From NCBI RefSeq assembly GCF_002210285.1, contig NZ_MWQE01000002.1, forward strand, positions 186,001 through 250,000: a DNA stretch of 64,000 bases, read 5' to 3'. The notes under the pieces are model-generated. The model worked only from the letters and a program-made list of their open reading frames with translations. It was not told the DNA's origin and did no database searches. This document shows, piece by piece, positions 12,874 through 63,257 of this stretch (position 1 is the stretch's first letter; each line of letters starts with the position of its first letter). Origin of the DNA: Fibrobacter sp. UWR2 (lineage in GTDB: Bacteria > Fibrobacterota > Fibrobacteria > Fibrobacterales > Fibrobacteraceae). Both the position numbers and the translations under genes were made by a program.

Positions 12874-13141
12874 TGAGTTCTCCTTTTTTGCGGTGCAAAA
12901 ATAGGGATATGGGCCTAAAAATTCTACTCCAAATGGTTTTGCTCAAAACCGAATGGGTCCATGCAAAATAGGGTGCGCCTGCTTTTTTTAATGGCAGGGT
13001 TTTCTTATTTTTGTCCGATTTTTGGAGTAAAGATGCACGTGCGGGACGACTTTACGTCCAAATATGCCTGTTTTTCATAAAAATGGGCTTTTTCTGCTTC
13101 CACGAAGTCGTAAGAATTTATATTTCTATTGACATAATGAA

Positions 13142-13380
13142 TTAGAGTAGTACTCTTGTTCCCTATCTGGAAATTCTGGTAAAATTTCTTGGGGCTTGCC
13201 CCTGCAACTTGGGAAGAAGACGAACACTCACACCGATCGGGTGTGGGTCGTTGGGTGTATGCCCACGGTGAGTTTTCGCTTACTGTCGTGCTTAAAGTTG
13301 CGGGTTTACCAGAGTCTCCAGATAAAAGCCGAACGACACCATGCCTTTTTTGTTTTCAAAAAAGTATGGCGTGATCAGCA
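13142..13380 (+). ncRNA. Candidate structured leader RNA, copy A (type undescribed to me)
   Basis: A segment clearly homologous to 35391-35665. Shared features in order are: a hairpin AGAG-N5-CTCT followed by TGTTC; a hairpin GAAAT/ATTTC; the string CGAAC; a stem CTCACACC/GGTGTGGG (in copy B CTCACGC/GCGTGGG, so pairs change together); TCGTT; CTGTCG; a T-rich stretch; and GCAATC. Copy A has an extra GGGGC/GCCCC hairpin at about 13191-13203 and a strong late hairpin at 13340-13369. A TTGACA-like box lies at about 13129-13134. It precedes an AT-rich accessory gene set. It does not match tmRNA, RNase P, SRP RNA or riboswitches I know. I saw nothing else in 12874-13141. Confidence 0.55.
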
Positions 13381-13382
13381 AT

Positions 13383-13409
13383 CGTCATTCTCGCGCAGGC
13401 GAGAATCTC
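13383..13409 (-). repeat. Dispersed palindromic repeat, copy 2
   Basis: On the minus strand it reads GAGATTCTCGCCTGCG followed by CGAGAATGACG. It is the same design as the other three copies: GAGAT, a variable perfect stem, then ATGAC. It lies between the structured leader and the small lipoprotein gene. Confidence 0.6.
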
Positions 13410-13465
13410 GGCATCCTGAACAAGACCACTGCTCGCAGACTGCCTTTGGCAGAAAGGTGCGAAAG

Positions 13466-13768
13466 ATGAAAAAGACAATTTTGGCTTTGGCTACCTTTTT
13501 TCTTTGTTCATGTAACATTGACTACGATACGGATAAATTGATTGGAACTAGTTTCGTTTATATTGGGGAATGTCCTAATTTATATGATTATCTTGATAGT
13601 GAAAATTCTTGTACAAAGTCTAATGATGAACATGCTTATTCATGCAAAAAATTAGAAGCCATGAAAAAGTATTTGAGAAAGGATGAAAAATGTAAGGAGA
13701 AATTGTTGTTGGAAGTCTTGGTGCATGGGTTTGCAATTGGATCGAGTCTGTATTTATTATCAAGGTAG
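13466..13768 (+). CDS. Small Cys-rich lipoprotein, function unknown
   Basis: A 100-residue protein. I start at ATG 13466 because it opens a lipoprotein signal (MKKTILALATFFLCSC, Cys16 lipidated). The longer frame upstream runs through the structured leader and the palindromic repeat. The mature part is Cys- and Lys-rich, with CPNLYDYLDSENSC and YSCKKLEAMKKYLRKDEKC, and ends with a hydrophobic stretch (LLLEVLVHGFAIGSSLYLL) that could insert in a membrane. The gene is AT-rich, unlike the GC-balanced flanks, and stands at the head of a patch that looks acquired. I do not recognise a family. Confidence 0.6.
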   Translation: MKKTILALATFFLCSCNIDYDTDKLIGTSFVYIGECPNLYDYLDSENSCTKSNDEHAYSCKKLEAMKKYLRKDEKCKEKLLLEVLVHGFAIGSSLYLLSR

Positions 13769-13823
13769 CAAGTAAACTGGGAACAAAACTCAAAAAAAGT
13801 AATTCAAATGTTTGAAAGGTGTA

Positions 13824-14789
13824 ATGATGAATTATCAAGATGCTTGGAACAAAATAGTTGAGAAAGAAAAAGATCTTTCTGGAAAAAAGGAAGAAGCAGT
13901 TCAAACAATGTGGGAATCCGTTATTCTCCGAGATTATTTAGAATATAAGAAAGATTGTATCAATTCTCAACGGAAAATTAGAATCGGTTCTACGGATAAA
14001 ATTGCTGACATTGTCCTTTGCAAAGAAAATAAGGAAATGTGTATTGTAGAATTAAAAAGATTTGAATTGCACGAAGGCAGAAATCAGTTATTTTCATATC
14101 TTAAACAAATAGATCGTGTATCTATTGGCGTTCTTGTTTGCGATAAATTGTATGTCTATGACTATCAATATGGACGAGATGCTGAAAAGCAACCTTATGT
14201 AGAGATTTCTTTTGAAGAGAATAATTTAGATGGAATTTCTTTTGTAGAATTGTTTAATTCATCCAATTTTGACGAAAGAAAAATTAAAGAATGGATTGCA
14301 AAAAAGAATGAAGAACGTCAATTGCTAAAGCAAAAACAAAACAATTTTAACAAAAATGTTGCTCAAATAAAAAATGAAATAAATGATAGCCTTATTAAGG
14401 AATTGCTAAAGAAGTATTTCATAAATGAAAGAGGTTTTACAAAAGAAGAATTTGAAAAGGCTGATAGTGAACATAACCAGATTTCGCCACAACCTTTACT
14501 ACGTAACCGTAGAAATACGGCAAATAAGCGGATGGAAAAATTTAAAGAATGGCTTACTGCACATAAATATTCTCCAAATGTGGCAAGCGGATATGCAAGT
14601 GCGGTTAATTATATTGAACAACACCAATGCAAATTAGGAAATAATATTGATATATGGAATGCATCAAAGGGAACCATTCGAGATTTAGTTCGTGATTATG
14701 ATAGCGATGGTAAGTATGCTAAAATTGGTCTAGAAAGGCATGCCGCAATTAAGAATGGTCTTAAGCGATATTACGAATTTTTATCATAA
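13824..14789 (+). CDS. PD-(D/E)XK nuclease-like protein with C-terminal helical domain
   Basis: A 321-residue cytoplasmic protein. ATG 13824 follows GAAAGGTGTA; an in-frame TTG at 13812 is less likely. The N-terminal half has the HsdR-N-type nuclease layout: Asp62 in KIADIVL, Glu76-Leu-Lys78 in CIVELKR, and a QxxxY pair (Gln88, Tyr92) in NQLFSYLKQ. A charged coiled-coil region spans about residues 150-205. The last 90 residues (FKEWLTAHKYSPNVASGYASAV onward) resemble the SAM-like core-binding domain of tyrosine recombinases, but no catalytic recombinase domain follows. No methylase or helicase is adjacent. A defence or DNA-processing role is a guess. Its AT-rich sequence suggests transfer. 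Confidence 0.65.
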   Translation: MMNYQDAWNKIVEKEKDLSGKKEEAVQTMWESVILRDYLEYKKDCINSQRKIRIGSTDKIADIVLCKENKEMCIVELKRFELHEGRNQLFSYLKQIDRVSIGVLVCDKLYVYDYQYGRDAEKQPYVEISFEENNLDGISFVELFNSSNFDERKIKEWIAKKNEERQLLKQKQNNFNKNVAQIKNEINDSLIKELLKKYFINERGFTKEEFEKADSEHNQISPQPLLRNRRNTANKRMEKFKEWLTAHKYSPNVASGYASAVNYIEQHQCKLGNNIDIWNASKGTIRDLVRDYDSDGKYAKIGLERHAAIKNGLKRYYEFLS

Positions 14790-14825
14790 TGTGTGAGATG
14801 GTTTGAAAATGCCAGAATAAATCCT

Positions 14826-16133
14826 ATGCCCAAAACAAAAACTACATCCGAGGATGCCGATATCAAACGTTTTGAAAAGTTCGTTAAAGAACTTCTCGGC
14901 AAGGATGATGCCGAACTCTTTTTAGAAAAATACGGTGAACAGTGGAATGAACGTATTGAGAGAGATGAACCTGAATTAGATTCGTTCGTCTTAAAGGCTA
15001 TTGAATTTGACAATGCTTCGTGTGCAATCATTCTTATGAATGATTGGATGAGGTTCATGAACAAGGTGGAAAATTACGAAAAGTGGAAAAAGAATTCACC
15101 TGCACAAAAGCAAGATATCATAGAAGACTATTATTTTCAAATAAAGGCTGACTTCTTTCGCGCCAGTCTAGAAAAATATGGTGGACGCAAAGGCGTCGAA
15201 GATAAACTGTTGGCGTTGAATGGAATGTTGAGAAAAAAGAATTTCGAAGATGCGTCAAAACAGTCAAAAACTCTACTCAAAATATTAGACGATAATCCGT
15301 TTGTTTCAAATGAATCCTTCCAATATGTCTCTATTATGAACGAAATGGAATGGTTTGTTTATCAGCATTATAACAAATCGTCAAATTCTAATGTTAGGAA
15401 CATTAACTTTATTTGTCCGGTAGAATACATTTATTTAGAGAATGCTGCCATTGCTTTTGAAATGAAAAAATATTCAGAAGCAGAAAAATATCTGAATGAG
15501 ACACTGAAATGGAACCCGGTTTCCGCATATGGTTTGTGGTTTCTCGCTCGTGTGTATCTAGAGCGAAGGCAGTGGAAACAAAGCCTAGATACAATCATTC
15601 GAGGCCTAAAATATGCGTATCGTCCATCCCATTTTAGGGCGTTTTATGATGCTTTGATGTGTTATTTCGATGGCAGGAATTTGAACAAGGATGTTTTATG
15701 TTGTATTTATTTGAAAATGCAATATGCGTCTTCGGATAAAACCAGAAAGAATGTCGCTCAGGATTTTCAAATCTTTTCTAGATCAGAATGCGCAACAAAT
15801 TTGCGTGTGAAAAAATTATGCGATGCGTATATTAAGCCCCTAGAGGAGCCGGGCAAACGAAATAATAGGACTGATAGTAAATCAAGCAAGCTGGTTGATG
15901 TTTCAATTGAAGATGTTCGTGAATCGTCCCGAAAATATGGATATCCAATGGAAGTGAATCCAAAGATAATCGAACTGGCAAAATCTTATCGTGAAAAAGC
16001 CGTTTGTGCTAAAGATAATCGCGAAGCAGAATATTTTCAAACTATACTTTCTGATTTAGAGAAATGTCGGGAACAGGCGAAAAGAATTTGCGTGGCAATA
16101 TCTCGTCAAAGAAAATCAAAAATTGTGAGTTGA
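14826..16133 (+). CDS. TPR-containing cytoplasmic protein, accessory patch
   Basis: A protein of 435 residues from ATG 14826 (MPKTKTTSEDAD). GTG 14793 would add eleven residues, and neither start has a strong ribosome-binding site. There is no signal peptide or membrane segment. Around residues 200-270 there are tetratricopeptide-like helices (ECPVEYIYLENAAIAFEMKK region, YSEAEKYLNETLKWNPVSAYGLWFLARVY being the clearest part, seen as EAEKYLNETLKWNP and LWFLARVYLERRQW). The C-terminal tail is Lys/Arg-rich. It begins within 40 bases of the nuclease-like gene and shares its AT-rich composition, so the two probably work together. The function is unknown. Confidence 0.6.
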   Translation: MPKTKTTSEDADIKRFEKFVKELLGKDDAELFLEKYGEQWNERIERDEPELDSFVLKAIEFDNASCAIILMNDWMRFMNKVENYEKWKKNSPAQKQDIIEDYYFQIKADFFRASLEKYGGRKGVEDKLLALNGMLRKKNFEDASKQSKTLLKILDDNPFVSNESFQYVSIMNEMEWFVYQHYNKSSNSNVRNINFICPVEYIYLENAAIAFEMKKYSEAEKYLNETLKWNPVSAYGLWFLARVYLERRQWKQSLDTIIRGLKYAYRPSHFRAFYDALMCYFDGRNLNKDVLCCIYLKMQYASSDKTRKNVAQDFQIFSRSECATNLRVKKLCDAYIKPLEEPGKRNNRTDSKSSKLVDVSIEDVRESSRKYGYPMEVNPKIIELAKSYREKAVCAKDNREAEYFQTILSDLEKCREQAKRICVAISRQRKSKIVS

Positions 16134-16213
16134 TTTGAAAAGCCAGGCGTTGCGGGCTGGCGTATGAAGCCCGCTAGAAAGGGTAGCGGAAGACCCGCTA
16201 GGGTGGGCTTAAG

Positions 16214-16241
16214 AGATGCCCGACCAAGTCGGGCATGACAA
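16214..16241 (+). repeat. Dispersed palindromic repeat, copy 3
   Basis: GAGATGCCCGACCAAGT followed by CGGGCATGACA: a perfect CCCGAC-type stem with GAGAT before and ATGACA after. It lies in the 221-base gap between the accessory patch and feoA. The same gap holds other short inverted repeats, for example GGGGAA-CACT-TTCCCC at 16267-16282. A nearly identical copy is at 31601-31628. Confidence 0.75.
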
Positions 16242-16354
16242 TAAGGGTGGGGCGGGGCTGGAGCGAGGGGAACACTTTCCCCTTCAAATCTCCTCGGAGC
16301 ATTCAAAACCTATTTGGAGCGGTTTTTTGTGCGAGTTTCGGCTAATTTTGGCGC

Positions 16355-35390: not shown

Positions 35391-35665
35391 AAAGAGTTTT
35401 GCTCTTGTTCTCCAATCGAAATCTCGACCATTTCTTTGAACGAGGACAAGGCGAACGCTCACGCAGGTATGCCATTTTGCGGTGTGCCTCGGTTTGTCGT
35501 GTCAGCTGTTTGGCTGATTTATGGCCGCATAAGCCAATGACAACAGCCCGTTTGGGGCGTGGGTCGTTTGCGTTTATCGTTCAAGGCTGTCGAGAGCCCC
35601 GATTGGATAGATGCATCGACCTGCGCCTTTTCGTTTTTCAGACAGAAATCGGCAATCCTTGCAGA
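35391..35665 (+). ncRNA. Candidate structured leader RNA, copy B
   Basis: Homologous to 13142-13380. It has the AGAG-N5-CTCT hairpin followed by TGTTC, the GAAAT/ATTTC hairpin, GCGAACGCTCACGC, then after an insertion of about 90 bases GGGGCGTGGGTCGTT, then CTGTCG and GGCAATCC. The CTCACGC/GCGTGGG stem pairs like its counterpart in copy A with different bases. The insertion contains its own inverted repeats (CAGCTGTTTGGCTG and GGCCGCATAAGCC regions). It precedes the AT-rich DUF2971 and GLUG genes. I found no protein-coding signal in 35208-35701 besides the GGAGG of the next gene. Confidence 0.55.
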
Positions 35666-35701
35666 ACCGAGCAAACTCCGTAAGTTGAAGCGGAGGCTGC
35701 G

Positions 35702-36589
35702 ATGGCTGGAACGAAAAATGAAAAGTGCTCAATGGATTTTGTGCCTTTTGATGGTTTAAAAAATTGTTTCGTCAATAGAAATAAAGATAAAATGACGATG
35801 AAATGGTTTGACAGGCCGGATCCGACAATCTCGCGCTATATGCCGTATATTACATTTAAAAAATCCGTAAATGACAATTGTTTGTTATTTGTTTCACCTG
35901 AAAAATGGACCGATCCTTTTGAAAAAATATATCTACACGCGCATTTATCAGGTTTCCCGAACATTAAAGACTTCATTCCTCCGAAAGTGGCTTGTCTGTG
36001 TTTCACGAGACATTTAACCAGAAATTCAGATGCGTTTTGGAAAAGTTTTAAAAAAGATATTAACCAACAACTTGTTAGAGTTGAGTTCTCTTTGAAATCA
36101 TTGCTTGTACAATTATGTTCAAAATTAAAAAATGTACATATATATGTCTCTGCAATTGATTACTCCCTCGAACAACGAAAAATTAAGCAGCCAAGCCTTT
36201 TTCTTCCAAGCATTATTAATCTGAATGATAACAAAAAAATTAACCAAGAAGAATTGTTTATCAAAATGCTCTCATATAAAAGGATGTCATATGAGTATGA
36301 GAACGAAATTAGAATATTTCTTGTCCCTAATGGCAACAAGGAAATTCAATTTCAAGATAATGGGGTTTTTAGAATAAAAGAATTTGACTATGCTGCTGCT
36401 GTGAAAAAAGTATGGATTGAACCGTTTCCTTCAGGATGGATTACCAAAGCGAAAGCTAAAGAGCAAATGCCATTATTATCTAGTCGGATTAATCGATCTG
36501 GTATATATAAAACACAAAAACCTTGCGAGCAAATATTGTTTTCAGATTTAAAAAATGTTGTTTTTGAGGGGGAAAAAGATCATGGTTGA
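35702..36589 (+). CDS. DUF2971 family protein
   Basis: A 295-residue soluble protein. The start is ATG 35702, with GGAGG about nine bases upstream. The family pattern is clear: an early hydrophobic strand, LLFVSPEKWTDPFEKIYL near residue 60, VACLCFTRHLTRNSDAFWKSF near residue 97, then SYKRMSYEYENEIRIFLV near residue 200. DUF2971 proteins are scattered among accessory genes and have no settled function. The gene is AT-rich and overlaps the next one by eight bases. Confidence 0.85.
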   Translation: MAGTKNEKCSMDFVPFDGLKNCFVNRNKDKMTMKWFDRPDPTISRYMPYITFKKSVNDNCLLFVSPEKWTDPFEKIYLHAHLSGFPNIKDFIPPKVACLCFTRHLTRNSDAFWKSFKKDINQQLVRVEFSLKSLLVQLCSKLKNVHIYVSAIDYSLEQRKIKQPSLFLPSIINLNDNKKINQEELFIKMLSYKRMSYEYENEIRIFLVPNGNKEIQFQDNGVFRIKEFDYAAAVKKVWIEPFPSGWITKAKAKEQMPLLSSRINRSGIYKTQKPCEQILFSDLKNVVFEGEKDHG

Positions 36590-39500
36590 AATTCTAAAAA
36601 AAACAATAGCGTTTTTTTATAGCTTTGTCGCGATGGCCTTGGCTGCACCCCACATTTGGGATGGATCCGCAGATGTGTCTTGGTATGAAGACGGAGCCCA
36701 AACATATAATCTGACAACTCCAGAGCAATTGGCAGGGCTGGCAAAGTTAGTAAATAACGGAACATCTGATTTTTCCGGAAAAACAATTTCTCTAGGTGCA
36801 AACATATTCTTGAATGATACAGTAGGAGCTGGCATTGAAACTTGGTATGAAAATGCGCATAGAAATTGGGTTCCCATTGGAACGATAAATCACCCGTTTA
36901 AGGGAGAATTCGACGGACTTGCAGGAAAAAACAACCATAAGATTTATGGGCTTTATATAAAATCAACGTCTTATCATGTGGGGCTTTTCGGTTATACAAG
37001 TGTTGCAAAAATCAGCAATATAGACATTTTAATTGGAAATATTTCGTCTGAAGACGACGATGTTGGAACTTGTGTTGGATACGCATTGATGGGATCGATT
37101 ACAAATGTACATGCCGAAGGAATTAAGGTTAGAGGTGTCGATTATGTGGGAGGACTGACTGGAGATTTTAGTGGAAAAATCAAGAACAGTTCTTTTGTAG
37201 GAAATGTGACTGGACGCAATAACATTGGAGGAATTGCTGGCCGAGCTGTCAGACCTATATCAAAATGTTATTCTAGCGGAATTATAGATGGCGAGGGCAA
37301 TTATGTTGGCGGGATAGCAGGAAGTGCTGCAGGAATAGATTCTGTTTATCATACAGACGGGATTGTGCGTGGGCAACGTTATGTCGGTGGGTTGGTGGGA
37401 AATAGCAGTGGGTCTGTTTTGAATTCTTATTCAAAAGGGAATATTCTCGGAACAGGGGAATATGTTGGTGGCTTGGCGGGCTATGTGAACGGAAATGTTT
37501 CAAATTCTCATTCGGAAGGTAATGTAGCAGGCTTGGGTAATTATGTTGGTGGATTAGTTGGCTTATTGTATATTTCTTATAGTAATTCTCAATCTGTTTC
37601 ATGGGATATTGCTAGAGATTCGTATTCAATCGGAAACGTAAAGGGCGAAAATTATGTTGGTGGGCTTATTGGATTAGATTCTGTTTATCGAAACGCCAGG
37701 AACGATTATGCGCTAACGAGAAAAATTAATGGCGTGAGTGTTATGGGAACCATAGAGGGGAAAAATTATGTTGGAGGAATTGTGGGCAAAATGAGCTATG
37801 GCTATAGTGATAGTTCTTTTTCTTCTAATTTTTATTCAGAAATAGATTCGTGCCATCATGCTAATGGTGAAGTTGTTGGAGTAGGTTACGTTGGCGGTTT
37901 GCTGGGTTATACTTATGGTTCTATATCAAATTCATACTCTGAAGGAAATGTGAAGGGACTAAGCAATTATGTAGGAGGGCTTATTGGATATGGAACGGAT
38001 GTCCAAAAGAGCTATGTGGAGGGTTCCGTAGAGAGCGATTCTAGTTATGTTGGAGGAATTACTGGTTATGCGTCCGGGACAATCGATTCTAGCTCTCATA
38101 TAGGAGGACCCGTTAAAGGATTTGGTTTTGTTGGAGGCTTAACGGGTTCAGCAAAAACCATTTTAAACAGTTTTTCTGAAGGAAACGTGTTTGGGAGAGG
38201 GGATTATGTAGGGGGGCTTGTTGGATTTGTAGAAGGCATTCAGAAAAGTTATGTAAAAGGGGCCGTTGAAAGCGATTCAAGTTATGTGGGCGGACTTGCA
38301 GGTTATGTGACAGGGACAAATGATTCTAATTATCATATAGGTGGAAATGTTAGAGGTTTTAGCTATGTTGGCGGATTACTTGGTTATGCAACAAATGGCG
38401 TTTTTAATTCTCATTCAGAAGGTAATGTAACGGGATTGGGTAATTATGTTGGCGGATTACTTGGTTATGTCGCAAGCGACGTTTTTAATTCTCATTCAGA
38501 AGGTAATGTAACTGGGTTGGGTAATTATGTTGGAGGCTTAATTGGGTTGCACTATTGCCTTTACGAAGGTTTCGAACCACAAACATGGCGTATTGCTCCA
38601 AATTCGTATTCTGTTGGAAATGTAAAAGGTGGCGATTATGTCGGGGGACTTATTGGATTAGATTCTGTTTACCGTAATGTCCAAAATACATACACGTTGA
38701 CAAGATATTTTAATGGAGTAAGCATGCGAGGATCCGTTGAAGGAAATTCATATGTTGGCGGAATTGTGGGCAAAATGAATTTTGGTTATCGATATAGTTC
38801 TGCGTCTTCGGACTCTTATTATAAATCAGAAATTGATTCGTGCCATCATACCGATGGTGATGTGGCTGGATTGAATTATATTGGAGGGTTGGCTGGTTAT
38901 ATTAAAGGCCCTGTGTTAAATTCATCTTTTGAAGGGAATGTGAATGGTTTGGGAAATTATGTAGGTGGACTTGTTGGAGTTGGGACTGATATTCGAAAGA
39001 GTTATGTGAAAGGTTCTGTTGAAAGTGATTCTAGTTACGTTGGTGGAGTTGCGGGAAAAGCGACAGGAGTTGATTCTGCTTATCATATAGGAGGCGATGT
39101 TGGTGGCTTTAGGTATGTTGGTGGATTGGCTGGTTCTACGACTAGCGATGTTTTGAATTCTTATTCTGAAGGAAATGTAAAAGGAAAAGGAAATTATGTA
39201 GGTGGACTTGTTGGAGTTGGGACTGATATTCGAAAGAGTTATGTGAAAGGTTCTGTTGAAAGTGATTCTAGTTACGTTGGCGGAGTTGCGGGAAGAGCGA
39301 CAGGAGTTGATTCCGCTTATCATATAGAAGGCGATGTTAGTGGCTTTAGATATGTTGGTGGATTGGCTGGTTCTACGACTAGTGATGTTTTGAATTCTTA
39401 TTCTGAAGGAAATGTAAAAGGAAAAGGGAATTATGTAGGTGGGCTTGTCGGATATGGAAAGATCATAAAAAAAAGTCATGCGAAAGGTTCTGTAATCGGG

Positions 39501-42500
39501 CAAAACAACTATGTTGGAGGAATTACGGGCTATTCGACAGGAACGATTGATGAAGTTCAACAAATAGATGGTAACGTTAGTGGATTGAGCTATGTTGGCG
39601 GCTTGGTTGGGTATACGACTGCTAATTTGTCTAATTCAATTGCTGCAGGGAGTGTAACGGGTGTCGGAGATTATGTAGGAGGATTAATTGGGTTGTATTA
39701 TTCTCGTCATGCAAGCTCTTCTGCACAAACATGGAATGTTGTATCAAATTCAACTTATACAGGAAGCGTAAAGGGGGCTAATTATGTTGGTGGACTTGTT
39801 GGATTGGATTCCGTTTATCGCGATGTCGATAATAAAGTCGTTTTAACTAGGAATTTTAAAAGTGTTCATATGCAAGGATCTGTTGAAGGTCTATCCTATG
39901 TTGGTGGAATTGTAGGTAAAATGAACTACGGCTATAAGTACGATTCAGATTCGTTAAGTTCATATTATAAGTCAGAAATTGATTCGTGTTATCATATTGA
40001 TGGGGATGTAATTGGGACAAATTATGTGGGCGGTTTATCAGGATCTATTTACGGATTTTTGTCAAATTCTTATTCTGAAGGAAATGTGAGGGGTGATGGC
40101 AATTATGTTGGCGGACTTGTTGGGTATGGAAAATACAAAATAAGAAAAAGCTATGTTGATGGATACGTTGTCGGAAATTCTGATTATGTAGGTGGCTTGG
40201 TTGGATATATGGGTGGGCAGGTAAATCACACTGATTATGGTGTTGACTCCTCTTATCATATTGGAGGTAATGTGAGTGGTCGCGATTACATTGGCGGTTT
40301 GGTTGGTTATGCGTCTAGTAATGTGTACAAATCTCGTTCTGAAGGAGATGTAAGGGGTACTGGAAAATATGTTGGTGGGCTTGTTGGATTTGGTGAAAAT
40401 GAAATGAGAGTGCGTTCATGTGATGCTGTGGGCTCTGTTTCAAGTGATTCTAGTTATGTTGGTGGTTTAATTGGCTATACGACAGGAACTATTTATTTAT
40501 CTAGTCATATAGGAGGAAGTGTAAGTGGACATGATTATGTTGGTGGCTTAACGGGATGCTTAATGAGTGATGTGTCAAATTCTAATTCCGAAGGAGATGT
40601 GGTCGCCACAGGAAATTATGTCGGTGGATTAGTTGGGTATATGGCAGGTGATGTATCAGATTCTCACTCAGAGGGGAATGTTTCTGCTATAGGAAATTAT
40701 GTTGGTGGTTTAGTTGGTATGTATTATCGCGAATGTAAGTCAACTAACCAGTCAATATGGAATATTGCGTCAAATTCACATTCTAGCGGAAATGTAAAAG
40801 GTGGTAACTATGTCGGTGGTCTCATTGGATTGGATTCTATTTATTTCTCTTCTAACCAGACATATTATAGCGGAACGTTAACAAGAAAAGTAAACAATGC
40901 GGTACTTCAAGGTTCTGTGGAAGGAAAAAAATATGTTGGAGGAATTGTTGGTAAAATGAATTATGGTTACCGGAATTCTTCCTTCTCCTCACCATCTTAT
41001 TACAAATCAGAACTTAATTCATGCGAGCATACACATGGAGATGTGGTAGGATTGAGTTATGTGGGCGGTTTGGTGGGCTATACTTATGGCTCTATATCGG
41101 ATTCACATTCAGATGGAAATGTGGTTGGTGACTCTAATTATATCGGTGGTTTAGCAGGAGCTATAGCGGGAAGACTTGTTTTTTCCTACCATACTGGAGA
41201 AAAGGTGATTGGACGTGATTTCGTTGGTGGTGTGGCAGGTTCTGCGAACGTGATTCGAAATAGTTATGCGATTATGCCTTTTGTTATGGGACGTAATAAT
41301 GTTGGAGGTTTGTCTGGATATGCAACCGATTCTGTTTATGCATCATATTTTGAAGGCGACACCGTCATGGGAACTTTTGAAGTTGGCGGTCTTGTTGGAA
41401 AAACTCTATCGGCTGTTGTTCGTTCGTATTCAACAACAAATGTCAAAGGTGATGACAATGTAGGTGGACTTGTTGGTAGCGCTGATTGGCATATATCTGA
41501 TTCATATGCGTTAGGAAATGTTGTTGGTGATATTGACCATTCATCGACTGGTAATGATAATTTGGGGGGACTTGTAGGCTATCAATATGCTGGATCAATA
41601 AGCAACTCTATGGCACTCGGTAATGTTTCTGGTACTACCAAATTGGGTGGGCTTGTTGGTCGCTTTGATGGAAAAAGTATATCGAAATCTTATGCAAATG
41701 GTGATGTGACTGGCGATTATTATGGAAATCCTGCTGACGAAATGGGCAATTATTATATAGGTGGTTTGGTTGGCTACGCAAAGGGGACCTTTACAGAAAC
41801 GTATGCAAGTGGGGCTGTGCGGGGAATTAAAGAGGATCCTGTTTATACGGGTTGCATTGTTGGATATGTGAATGGTTCTTTGAGTATCACAAATTCATAT
41901 TATGATAAAACTAAATGTGATTTGGGTGCAGATGGTGGGGAAAATGCAGCTTCCATTTCTGGGGTCGTTGGAAAAACAACTGCAGAAATGTACAATCAAT
42001 CTACTTTTGAAAACTGGGATTTTGTTGATACGTGGAAAATGATGAGTCAATCGTATCCTTTTTTACAAATATATGCTAATTCCTTGGTCAATGCTGTCGT
42101 GACAACGGAATCGCTAGATGGATTTGTCTATGATGGTCTGCCCAAGACTCCTCAGGTGACAATGGTGAGTCTTTTTGGGGGAATTTTGACGCAAGGAGTT
42201 GATTATTCCGTTAATTATGTTAACAATAGCGAATCGGGCTCTGCAAATATAAGTGTATGCGGCCATTACCCATATGGAGGCTGTAAAAATATTCCATTTG
42301 AAATCGCCCCCCTTGTGATTGAACCGTCTATCGCCACTATTGAAAATGTTGTTTATACCGGGTATCCCTTGACCCCTAAAGTTTCTGTCAATAATGGCGA
42401 AAATATTCTTGCAATAACCGATTACACTGTTGAATACAAAGATAATATAAATGCCGGAAAAGCGATGGCATTCGTACATTTGAAGGGGAATTATAGTGGC

Positions 42501-44243
42501 TCGGGATCCCAAACATTTACAATAGAAAAAGCAACGCCTGTTATTAATCAAATGCCAATGGCAAGCGATATTCCTGCTGGACAACAACTTGGTTCGTCAG
42601 AATTATTAGGGGGTGCCGCTAATGTTGAAGGTGTTTTCATATGGGAAACTCCTCAAATGACGCCTTTATCTGAAAATGACGGCTATGTTGTGGCGTTTGT
42701 GCCTATTGATACCGTTGATTATAATTCGGTTGAATTTGTGGTGCCGCTTATTGTCCGTGATGCAGCAAGCGTTGTTGTTCGCGTGAATGGTGCAGTTCTT
42801 GATAGCATGGTTGTTATAAAGGGGGGTAGTTACACATTGCCTGTGCTTCCTGATAGCATAGGTTATTCATTTGTAGGATTTTATAATGGTGATTTAAAAG
42901 TCGGCGATTCAGGAGACGAAATCATCGTGAATGAAAACACGGTTGTTGAGGCCGTTTATGAGATAAAAACTTTTGTTGTGAGATTTGTAAATAATGACAT
43001 GGAATTACAATCTGAAGAATTGTCATATGGAACGCTCCCTACATATAAGGGTAGTGAACCTGTAAAGATGGCAACGGCGCAATATACCTACATATTCAAA
43101 GGTTGGGATCCTGCTATTTCATCTGTTGCAGAACCTGCGATTTATATGGCTGTATTTGATAGCGTCGTAAATAAGTATGAAGTACTTTTCAAGGATTACG
43201 ATGGCTCAATTTTGAAAGATGCTGTTCAATATGATTATGGAACATCTTCGGCAAGTATTGTTAAACCGATAAATCCGACAAGACAAGAAACAGCAAAATA
43301 CACCTACACATTTAAGAGATGGAACCCAACTCTTGCAGATGTAACGGGAAATACCGTTTACACCGCCGAATATGACAGCACTATTCGAGATTATCAGGTT
43401 GTCTTTGTCAATGGCAATGAAGAACTTCAATCGGAAACTGTTGCATATGGAGAAATTCCTACGTATAATGGCGTAGAACCATCTAAACCGGAAACAGCTC
43501 AGCATGCTTACATATTCAAGGACTGGGCTCCTGTAATTACGCCGGTGACGGGTAATGTGACCTATACCGCTGTTTATGATTCCATTATTAATAAGTATGA
43601 CGTGATGTTTATGGATTATAAGGGAATGGTGCTATCACATTCGACTTATGCTTATGGTACGGATGCTTCGCAGATTGCGAAACCCGACAACCCAAAGAGA
43701 GATACGACTGCTAAGTATATTTACACGTTTAAGGGATGGACTCCGTCGGTTACATCGGTAACGGATAATGCTACCTACACAGCCGTGTTCGACAGCACGC
43801 TTAGAAAATATAGCGTATCCTTTGTATCAGACGGGTCCGTTTTGGAAACAGTCGATGTTGTTTACGGAGAAACTCCCAAATATTCAGGTGAAACGCCTAC
43901 AAAGCCTTCGAGTAAATCCTATTCTTATGAATTTGCTGGATGGTCACCGAAACTTGGTCCGGTCGAAAAAGATTTGATATACACTGCGGTTTTCGATAGC
44001 ACTGTGATAACTGGGATTGCTGATGTGCACTTTGCCAATCAGGGACTGTCTGTGAAGGCCGTGAATCGAAACATCCAAATTTCGACTGCGACAATCGGTT
44101 CTGCATACGTGATTTTTGATATGCAGGGGCGGGTGCTGCGAAAAGGACGTGTTGATTCGGTAAACTTTAATATTGTGATGCCGATTGCGGGTAATTACTT
44201 GGTAAAGATCGGAAATCAGTTGCGGCATATCAGCGTAAAATAA
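36582..44243 (+). CDS. Giant GLUG-repeat surface protein with T9SS-like tail
   Basis: A 2553-residue exported protein (signal MVEILKKTIAFFYSFVAMALA; GAGGGGG before ATG 36582). From about residue 150 to 1790 it carries around fifty GLUG-type motifs of the form NYVGGLVGY, each followed by NSYSEGNVKG-like strands, forming a long right-handed beta-solenoid. Four higher-order cassettes each contain GLIGLDSVYRN and an EIDSCHH segment. After two MBG/YDG-like sandwiches come about five InlB/Flg_new-type repeats of 70 residues (YTYTFKRWNPTL, TAVFDS). The last 75 residues resemble a type IX secretion sorting domain (YVIFDMQGRVLRKGR, GNYLVKIG, ISVK). Likely an adhesin or surface fibre. It is AT-rich compared with the flanks. 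Confidence 0.88.
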   Translation: MVEILKKTIAFFYSFVAMALAAPHIWDGSADVSWYEDGAQTYNLTTPEQLAGLAKLVNNGTSDFSGKTISLGANIFLNDTVGAGIETWYENAHRNWVPIGTINHPFKGEFDGLAGKNNHKIYGLYIKSTSYHVGLFGYTSVAKISNIDILIGNISSEDDDVGTCVGYALMGSITNVHAEGIKVRGVDYVGGLTGDFSGKIKNSSFVGNVTGRNNIGGIAGRAVRPISKCYSSGIIDGEGNYVGGIAGSAAGIDSVYHTDGIVRGQRYVGGLVGNSSGSVLNSYSKGNILGTGEYVGGLAGYVNGNVSNSHSEGNVAGLGNYVGGLVGLLYISYSNSQSVSWDIARDSYSIGNVKGENYVGGLIGLDSVYRNARNDYALTRKINGVSVMGTIEGKNYVGGIVGKMSYGYSDSSFSSNFYSEIDSCHHANGEVVGVGYVGGLLGYTYGSISNSYSEGNVKGLSNYVGGLIGYGTDVQKSYVEGSVESDSSYVGGITGYASGTIDSSSHIGGPVKGFGFVGGLTGSAKTILNSFSEGNVFGRGDYVGGLVGFVEGIQKSYVKGAVESDSSYVGGLAGYVTGTNDSNYHIGGNVRGFSYVGGLLGYATNGVFNSHSEGNVTGLGNYVGGLLGYVASDVFNSHSEGNVTGLGNYVGGLIGLHYCLYEGFEPQTWRIAPNSYSVGNVKGGDYVGGLIGLDSVYRNVQNTYTLTRYFNGVSMRGSVEGNSYVGGIVGKMNFGYRYSSASSDSYYKSEIDSCHHTDGDVAGLNYIGGLAGYIKGPVLNSSFEGNVNGLGNYVGGLVGVGTDIRKSYVKGSVESDSSYVGGVAGKATGVDSAYHIGGDVGGFRYVGGLAGSTTSDVLNSYSEGNVKGKGNYVGGLVGVGTDIRKSYVKGSVESDSSYVGGVAGRATGVDSAYHIEGDVSGFRYVGGLAGSTTSDVLNSYSEGNVKGKGNYVGGLVGYGKIIKKSHAKGSVIGQNNYVGGITGYSTGTIDEVQQIDGNVSGLSYVGGLVGYTTANLSNSIAAGSVTGVGDYVGGLIGLYYSRHASSSAQTWNVVSNSTYTGSVKGANYVGGLVGLDSVYRDVDNKVVLTRNFKSVHMQGSVEGLSYVGGIVGKMNYGYKYDSDSLSSYYKSEIDSCYHIDGDVIGTNYVGGLSGSIYGFLSNSYSEGNVRGDGNYVGGLVGYGKYKIRKSYVDGYVVGNSDYVGGLVGYMGGQVNHTDYGVDSSYHIGGNVSGRDYIGGLVGYASSNVYKSRSEGDVRGTGKYVGGLVGFGENEMRVRSCDAVGSVSSDSSYVGGLIGYTTGTIYLSSHIGGSVSGHDYVGGLTGCLMSDVSNSNSEGDVVATGNYVGGLVGYMAGDVSDSHSEGNVSAIGNYVGGLVGMYYRECKSTNQSIWNIASNSHSSGNVKGGNYVGGLIGLDSIYFSSNQTYYSGTLTRKVNNAVLQGSVEGKKYVGGIVGKMNYGYRNSSFSSPSYYKSELNSCEHTHGDVVGLSYVGGLVGYTYGSISDSHSDGNVVGDSNYIGGLAGAIAGRLVFSYHTGEKVIGRDFVGGVAGSANVIRNSYAIMPFVMGRNNVGGLSGYATDSVYASYFEGDTVMGTFEVGGLVGKTLSAVVRSYSTTNVKGDDNVGGLVGSADWHISDSYALGNVVGDIDHSSTGNDNLGGLVGYQYAGSISNSMALGNVSGTTKLGGLVGRFDGKSISKSYANGDVTGDYYGNPADEMGNYYIGGLVGYAKGTFTETYASGAVRGIKEDPVYTGCIVGYVNGSLSITNSYYDKTKCDLGADGGENAASISGVVGKTTAEMYNQSTFENWDFVDTWKMMSQSYPFLQIYANSLVNAVVTTESLDGFVYDGLPKTPQVTMVSLFGGILTQGVDYSVNYVNNSESGSANISVCGHYPYGGCKNIPFEIAPLVIEPSIATIENVVYTGYPLTPKVSVNNGENILAITDYTVEYKDNINAGKAMAFVHLKGNYSGSGSQTFTIEKATPVINQMPMASDIPAGQQLGSSELLGGAANVEGVFIWETPQMTPLSENDGYVVAFVPIDTVDYNSVEFVVPLIVRDAASVVVRVNGAVLDSMVVIKGGSYTLPVLPDSIGYSFVGFYNGDLKVGDSGDEIIVNENTVVEAVYEIKTFVVRFVNNDMELQSEELSYGTLPTYKGSEPVKMATAQYTYIFKGWDPAISSVAEPAIYMAVFDSVVNKYEVLFKDYDGSILKDAVQYDYGTSSASIVKPINPTRQETAKYTYTFKRWNPTLADVTGNTVYTAEYDSTIRDYQVVFVNGNEELQSETVAYGEIPTYNGVEPSKPETAQHAYIFKDWAPVITPVTGNVTYTAVYDSIINKYDVMFMDYKGMVLSHSTYAYGTDASQIAKPDNPKRDTTAKYIYTFKGWTPSVTSVTDNATYTAVFDSTLRKYSVSFVSDGSVLETVDVVYGETPKYSGETPTKPSSKSYSYEFAGWSPKLGPVEKDLIYTAVFDSTVITGIADVHFANQGLSVKAVNRNIQISTATIGSAYVIFDMQGRVLRKGRVDSVNFNIVMPIAGNYLVKIGNQLRHISVK
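38961..39434 (+). repeat. Two tandem 237-base repeats inside the GLUG gene
   Basis: The units start at 38961 and 39198 and are nearly identical. Each encodes 79 residues (GVGTDIRKSYVKGSVES through NSYSEGNVKGKG). A third unit at 39435 keeps the 237-base period but has diverged. The near identity of the first two indicates recent duplication or slippage, so the repeat number may vary between strains. Confidence 0.85.
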
Positions 44244-63040: not shown

Positions 63041-63183
63041 GTTTTTTGCGCTGAGAAATTTTTTAGTATAGGTGCAAGAGTTGAGCAAATCTGCCGTAGG
63101 GTTTTTCACTTTTTTGCAGAAAAATTTTCTTCTTTTTGTGCATTGTTGAACGAGAATTTCGTTGCTATATTTTTCCGCGTTCC

Positions 63184-63237
63184 GCTTCCCTGCTTGCATC
63201 CGTACGGATGGGCTGTGACCTTCGAGGTAGGGGAGGC
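63184..63237 (+). ncRNA. Structured purF leader, probable fibro-purF motif RNA
   Basis: GCTTCCCT at 63184-63191 pairs with AGGGGAGGC at 63229-63237. Inside it a hairpin GCATCC-GTAC-GGATGGGC region forms a second stem, leaving a conserved-looking junction (TGTGACCTTCG). It ends 20 bases before the purF start. A fibro-purF RNA motif upstream of purF in Fibrobacter has been reported. The match of organism type, gene and position makes this assignment plausible, but I could not compare with the published consensus. Confidence 0.5.
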
Positions 63238-63257
63238 TTAAAATTCAAAGAGGCGAT

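Follow-up and report, generated by a model that had tools for sequence, protein, structure and literature searches.

A structured RNA family, probably of leaders, with two mutually exclusive pairings upstream of restriction-modification and other accessory genes in Fibrobacter

Two related structured elements, copy A and copy B, were located in the analysed window, a 64,000-nt stretch of the Fibrobacter sp. UWR2 genome (contig NZ_MWQE01000002.1, positions 186,001 to 250,000; all coordinates below are window positions). Each lies just upstream of accessory genes encoded on the same strand:

12968-16288 (no strand): accessory insertion with copy A and its genes; about 0-30 nt at the same place in three relatives
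13466-13768 (+): first ORF after copy A, small lipoprotein-like protein of 100 aa, no Pfam family
13812-14789 (+): second ORF after copy A, HSDR_N_2, restriction-enzyme-like N terminus (E 2.1e-6)
14793-16133 (+): third ORF after copy A, TPR-like protein, below the Pfam cut-off
35702-36589 (+): first ORF after copy B, PADLOC phage-defence candidate PDC-S31 (E 2.7e-21)

Directly after the first gene of copy B, positions 36555-44243 (+) encode a 2562-aa protein with many GLUG-like repeats.

The surroundings of copy A are variable. In three relatives its left and right neighbours (window ~12960 to 16286-16312) are joined, with 0-30 nt between them. The site is a hot spot between an MMPL-family gene and feoA-like/feoB genes, being empty in G005, G010, and G012 and occupied by other sequence in G003 and G008. 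The empty sites indicate that copy A was gained or lost together with a segment of ~3.3 kb. At this one site examined, the element starts ~175 nt inside the insertion, away from its edge, which counts against it being an integration site, one of the three roles (regulatory leader, small RNA, integration site for foreign genes) suggested by an earlier, sequence-only reading of this DNA. No obvious target duplication was found at the copy A insertion and no near-identical second copy in the genome of the window; homologues of copy A in relatives are 74-81% identical.

Read from 5' to 3', the element starts with hairpin P1 (AGAG/CTCT), followed by helix P2 (CTTGTTCTC/GAGGACAAG), whose loop holds the arms a, b, and c, with b displayed on a small GAAA/TTTC hairpin. 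After P2 come the linker CGAAC, strand H5 (CTCAC...), and a variable centre, which comprises a few bases in short copies and ~90 in long copies such as B. The 3' part consists, in this order, of strand X (GGCGTGGGTCGTT), the P4 5' strand, c', b' (sitting on a GGG/CCC-type hairpin), a', and the P4 3' strand; the element ends with a strand complementary to X and a U-run. In the two copies, the parts are placed as follows (states H and T are the alternative structures described below):

13115-13135 (+): A, promoter-like stretch TTATATTTCTATTGACATA, conserved in A-type copies directly 5' of P1, no sigma-70 consensus match
13142-13351 (+): copy A, A subtype, through the end of the U-run (DNA search, R1, fold)
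13144-13156 (+): A, P1 hairpin AGAG/CTCT
13155-13163 (+): A, P2 5' strand (state T)
13164-13171 (+): A, arm a, partner a' at 13317-13324 (state H)
13175-13183 (+): A, loop b, partner b' at 13305-13313
13204-13210 (+): A, arm c, partner c' at 13295-13301
13211-13219 (+): A, P2 3' strand
13227-13234 (+): A, putative antiterminator strand H5 CTCACACC, partner X
13240-13252 (+): A, dual-use strand X GGTGTGGGTCGTT, partner H5 or the terminator strand
13295-13324 (+): A, 3' arms c', b', a'
13337-13351 (+): A, putative terminator strand CACCATGCC and U-run TTTTTT
35391-35638 (+): copy B, long, B subtype, through the end of the U-rich run (DNA search, R1, fold)
35393-35405 (+): B, P1 hairpin
35404-35412 (+): B, P2 5' strand
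35412-35418 (+): B, arm a, partner a' at 35600-35606
35423-35428 (+): B, loop b, partner b' at 35589-35594
35435-35442 (+): B, arm c, partner c' at 35578-35584
35442-35450 (+): B, P2 3' strand, alternative partner the P4 5' strand
35458-35464 (+): B, putative antiterminator strand H5 (CTCACGC)
35465-35554 (+): B, central variable hairpins (sequence)
35555-35570 (+): B, dual-use strand X
35570-35614 (+): B, P4 5' strand, c', b', a', P4 3' strand
35615-35638 (+): B, putative terminator strand ATCGACCTGCGCC and U-rich run
35676-35695 (+): B, hairpin CTCCG/CGGAG masking part of the Shine-Dalgarno sequence

The sequence-only reading had already recognized two homologous structured elements at 13142 and 35391, which the R1 scores, DNA searches, and shuffle z-scores given below bear out. 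It also correctly described the AGAG/CTCT hairpin (here P1), the CTCAC/GTGGG stem with its compensatory change (ACACC/GGTGT versus ACGC/GCGT), and the ~90-base insertion at the stem tip of B, i.e., the central variable hairpins. Its starts hold and its ends are to be shortened, as the core stops at the U-run (A ~13351, B ~35638); GCAATC, listed there as a shared element, lies downstream of the core, is mostly absent from other copies, and falls outside the family. The TGTTC...CGAAC elements are present and better read as helix P2, TCGTT forms part of the dual-use strand, and CTGTCG is the b' loop, which can pair with the loop of the GAAAT/ATTTC hairpin, a complementarity that had been missed.

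Sigma-70 promoter scans gave no match at copy A or copy B, and the promoter candidate is a conserved AT-rich TATATTT-like stretch only. In short copies (e.g., L025, upstream of 1350), an extra GC-rich hairpin GCCCC...GGGGC lies between the promoter-like stretch and P1. The b loops are drawn from a small set (e.g., CTACCAC, CTGGTAAA, CTCGAC, CTGCAA) that differs by subtype (short, tandem, long), and arms a and c vary more freely; this small set may represent a shared recognition sequence.

A DNA-only search of 61 relatives matched copy A in 25 genomes and copy B in 36, all within the genus, and tens of Fibrobacter copies were already recovered by DNA searches alone. The minimum free energy of each copy was lower than that of all 200 dinucleotide shuffles (z -4.3 for A, -5.1 for B). 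To build a covariance model (R1), 40 copies, including copy B (L044) and leaving out A-type copies, were aligned without structural information once the variable central loop had been cut out (alignment A2). In a search of the window's own genome, R1 scored copy A, which was not among its 40 training sequences, at 45.8 bits (E 7e-5) and copy B, which was, at 108.5 bits (E 1.6e-16). Extended to Fibrobacter genomes, as had been proposed from the sequence, the search returned ~604 matches (the sum of per-genome counts) over 79 of 80 genomes, with a maximum of 19 per genome; all 40 good-quality Fibrobacter genomes had matches. The genome of the window (G000) holds nine R1 loci including A and B, the ninth being weak, with tandem or overlapping hits extra. 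Outside the genus, R1 matched further genera of the family and, with E values of 1e-5 to 1e-7, members of a second family in the phylum. The sole IMG/VR match (L297) was a chance match within a phage gene, and three GTDB contigs labelled Bacteroidales (L230, L238, L245) share stretches of 66-94% identity with Fibrobacter loci, probably as a result of mis-binning.

At the gathering score, no Rfam 15 family matched A, B, or ten loci covering all subtypes, and permissive scans of A and B returned chance matches only, in agreement with the earlier impression that the element belongs to no known family. Attenuator leaders as a class are known; no earlier description of this RNA family, of its architecture with freely varying self-complementary arms, or of its association with restriction-modification and FISUMP genes was found in Rfam or in the open-licence literature other than preprints.

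The element shows strong covariation. In A2, 89.6% of the cells of the combined structure are paired (76.2% when shuffled, 37-45% when slid), two-sided change is seen in 27 of 48 pairs, and the covariation score is 0.42 against 0.19 for shuffled alignments. The pairing was also tested free of alignment on 164 copies: the 5' and 3' loops of the same copy pair at a mean of -34.2 kcal/mol, against -13.5 kcal/mol for non-cognate loops, the own partner is the best of 164 for 139 copies, and none of 1000 permutations reaches the cognate value. Arm a is only 75% paired in the MAFFT alignment, which, given the strength of the duplex test, probably reflects misalignment. Across eight helices, G-U cells far outnumber A-C cells (363 versus 29), which shows that selection for pairing acts on this strand's RNA rather than on a DNA palindrome.

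Almost all conserved strands can choose between two partners. For X, these are H5 and the strand preceding the U-run, only one of which can be paired at a time; for the P2 3' half, they are the P2 5' half and the P4 5' half. Two nested structures result: state H, one long rod, and state T, a 5' hairpin plus a hairpin directly before the U-run, in the form of an intrinsic terminator. Paired cells make up 91.3% in state H (helices a, b, c, d, and H), where 22 pairs show two-sided changes, and 95.3% in state T (P2, P4, terminator), where 12 pairs do; slid controls give 32-55%. Both partners of X are conserved, with 99.7% of helix H cells and 97.2% of T cells paired, and a T-run of at least four is present in 186 of 192 distinct copies. 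The terminator scan is blind to a long-loop terminator of this kind because its rule permits loops of 3-8 only. In copies L331, L332, L336, and L342 of the second family, the arms, the rod, and both X pairings are kept in almost unrelated sequence, the rod being the predicted fold and the second X pairing being read by eye. The two structures are both conserved and exclude each other at X; they are maintained at the level of the RNA strand and lie 5' of same-strand genes. A pseudoknotted double-crossover with all helices formed at once was also considered; the same covariation follows more simply from two nested states, so that the double-crossover is regarded as no more than a possible fold.

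Constrained folds of 145 copies, under an energy model that does not represent pseudoknots and kissing loops, gave energy differences E(T)-E(H) of about +11 kcal/mol for short, +2 for long, +1.5 for tandem, and +8 for A-type copies. The long and tandem types are therefore near balance (1.5-2.0 kcal/mol) and the others favour H by 8-11 kcal/mol; in the window, the difference is 0.5 kcal/mol for B and 8.8 kcal/mol, in favour of H, for A. As the folds of short and A-type copies strongly favour the rod, termination there would need kinetics or a factor. By prediction, transcription reaches the terminator strand only after the H hairpin has formed.

A same-strand ORF starts within 150 nt in 147 of 192 distinct copies. 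Among the 149 copies with enough flank for the test, 117 are followed on the same strand by an ORF that spans at least 80 aa, has a ribosome-binding site, and starts no more than 150 nt downstream, compared with 10 on the mirrored side, and the median leader-to-ORF spacing is 72.5 nt for short (S) and 77 nt for B copies. The earlier proposal, that of a conserved structured RNA preceding accessory genes, is upheld, and of its three suggested roles this placement strongly favours the leader. In long copies, the ribosome-binding site tends to fall within a hairpin (0.81, versus 0.59 in control genes).

The first genes, clustered at 80% identity and scanned for families, differ by subtype. Those after short copies (55 clusters) mostly encode type I, II, III, and ISP DNA methyltransferases, with six DUF4417 proteins; those after long copies (74 clusters) include 19 that encode Fib_succ_major (FISUMP) proteins, alongside lipoproteins of other kinds, membrane proteins, and only a few defence genes. 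The eight clusters after tandem copies, scanned in one set together with eight A-type genes, comprise C5 methylases (four), EcoRI-type methylases (three), and a Tsp45I-type enzyme. No metabolic theme unites the downstream genes. Only 9 of 30 N6-methylase loci carry the leader, which marks it as a separable module. In the tandem form (L070, L072, L033, L038, L004), the 5' domain occurs a second time, after the first U-run and before type II methyltransferase genes; arms a and b of this second domain are largely complementary to the upstream 3' loops, and the tandem form looks as if it carries a second terminator. Elsewhere (L128, L130, L172, L125), a single restriction-modification locus carries two leaders, each preceding a gene of its own; DUF4417 proteins are among the products.

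The element has two features by which attenuator leaders are recognized, namely a mutually exclusive, conserved pair of putative antiterminator and terminator, and a site 5' of same-strand genes. We consider it likely that it is a cis-acting two-state RNA leader, most plausibly a transcription attenuator, near the transcription start of accessory operons, and that it probably works as an on/off switch for the downstream genes. In state H, a, b, c, and the P2 3' half would pair with c', b', a', and the P4 5' half, and the X-CTCAC pairing would serve as an antiterminator, with the terminator strand left unpaired. In state T, P2 would be closed on itself, P4 closed, and X paired to the strand directly before the U-run as an intrinsic terminator. 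The complementary loops b and b', carried on small hairpins in state T, could form a kissing contact that starts the exchange. State H would permit read-through and expression and state T would halt transcription, with the choice made by a factor, perhaps a protein or ligand holding the 5' hairpin; a factor keeping this conserved hairpin closed would favour T. Real termination, the identity of the ON state, and the factor choosing the state we infer from the architecture of the element and from comparison among copies.

Several other explanations have to be weighed against an attenuator. The nearest is an orphan riboswitch or protein-binding attenuator, i.e., the same switch with the P1-P2 hairpin binding one specific metabolite or protein. 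P1, P2, and the CGAAC-CTCAC linker are indeed conserved in sequence beyond the needs of pairing, and the second 5' domain of type II methyltransferase leaders recalls tandem sensors, but the lack of a metabolic theme downstream would be unusual for a metabolite riboswitch; we regard this reading as a substantial possibility, short of an even chance. The small RNA already mentioned, with its own promoter and terminator and acting in trans, would fit the discrete start, the stable fold, and the terminal U-run. The tight spacing to same-strand ORFs and their excess over the mirrored side would not be expected of it, however, and the alternative antiterminator pairing would be left without explanation, so this role fits poorly and is unlikely. 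A long stem for RNase III-type processing or mRNA stability, exerting no control of termination, would account for the rod of state H, which is a double helix of considerable length and, for short and A-type copies, the predicted ground state, yet neither the U-run nor the conserved second pairing of X before it would be explained, and we hold this to be slightly less likely still.

Least probable by far is a transposon-like inverted repeat or an attC-kind folded recombination site capturing foreign genes, although many copies per genome lie beside accessory genes and copy A belongs to an insertion missing from relatives. Compensatory changes extend over whole arms between copies, the G-U excess is not predicted for DNA palindromes, the insertion edge is distant from the start of copy A, and the elements lie outside cassette arrays. 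A transposon end or MITE was rejected in view of the absence of near-identical copies and of an obvious target duplication and the divergence of the arms by compensatory change; an integron attC site was rejected because copy A, at the one site, lies within the insertion rather than at its boundary and the G-U asymmetry points to RNA. A T-box leader was likewise dismissed, with no Rfam match and downstream genes that are not aminoacyl-tRNA or amino-acid genes. As for retrons and group II introns, there was no Rfam match and no reverse transcriptase among the top 25 Pfam families listed for the first genes.

Restriction-modification genes are known to be controlled by C proteins or antisense RNA. 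The element would share with these the regulation of restriction-modification gene expression; unlike C-protein control, it would act through a leader RNA common to non-restriction genes and require no C-protein gene. Exchange of hairpins initiated by loop-loop contact is known from ColE1 RNAI/RNAII and from retroviral dimer initiation, where two hairpins with complementary loops kiss and proceed to an extended duplex, as they could here; the Fibrobacter element differs in having both hairpins on the same transcript, and termination would hinge on the product. Attenuator leaders and riboswitches have been surveyed on the basis of their terminators (PMC2965389). With known attenuators and riboswitches, such as trp attenuators and the T-box, the element has in common the leader position, a mutually exclusive putative antiterminator and intrinsic terminator, the U-run, and a downstream ribosome-binding site. 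It differs in that the rearrangement spans nearly the whole RNA, that arms a, b, and c are almost free in sequence while their self-complementarity is conserved, and that its genes are restriction-modification and accessory genes with no common metabolite.

An RNA class of ~600 members in one genus that is absent from Rfam and the searched literature is rare. This one connects restriction-modification genes with control at the RNA level; how such genes become safely established in a new host has long been asked. With arms that vary freely yet stay self-complementary, the family illustrates a two-state RNA with a clarity unusual in nature and could serve to study how RNA switches remain orthogonal to one another, and the attenuator prediction is directly testable by RNA-seq of Fibrobacter. 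More tentatively, we hypothesize that it may be a dedicated Fibrobacterota RNA switch gating newly acquired restriction-modification and accessory genes, in which each leader's own self-complementary arms would let many leaders coexist without cross-pairing under a shared signal, possibly phage infection or a new-operon state; we rate this broader idea as doubtful.

The sole Rfam match in the window is a Fibro-purF RNA (RF02974) at 63180-63254 (+). Like the proposed leader, it is a Fibrobacter cis-regulatory RNA; it does not cross-match with the element, comprises 75 positions, and has another gene context.
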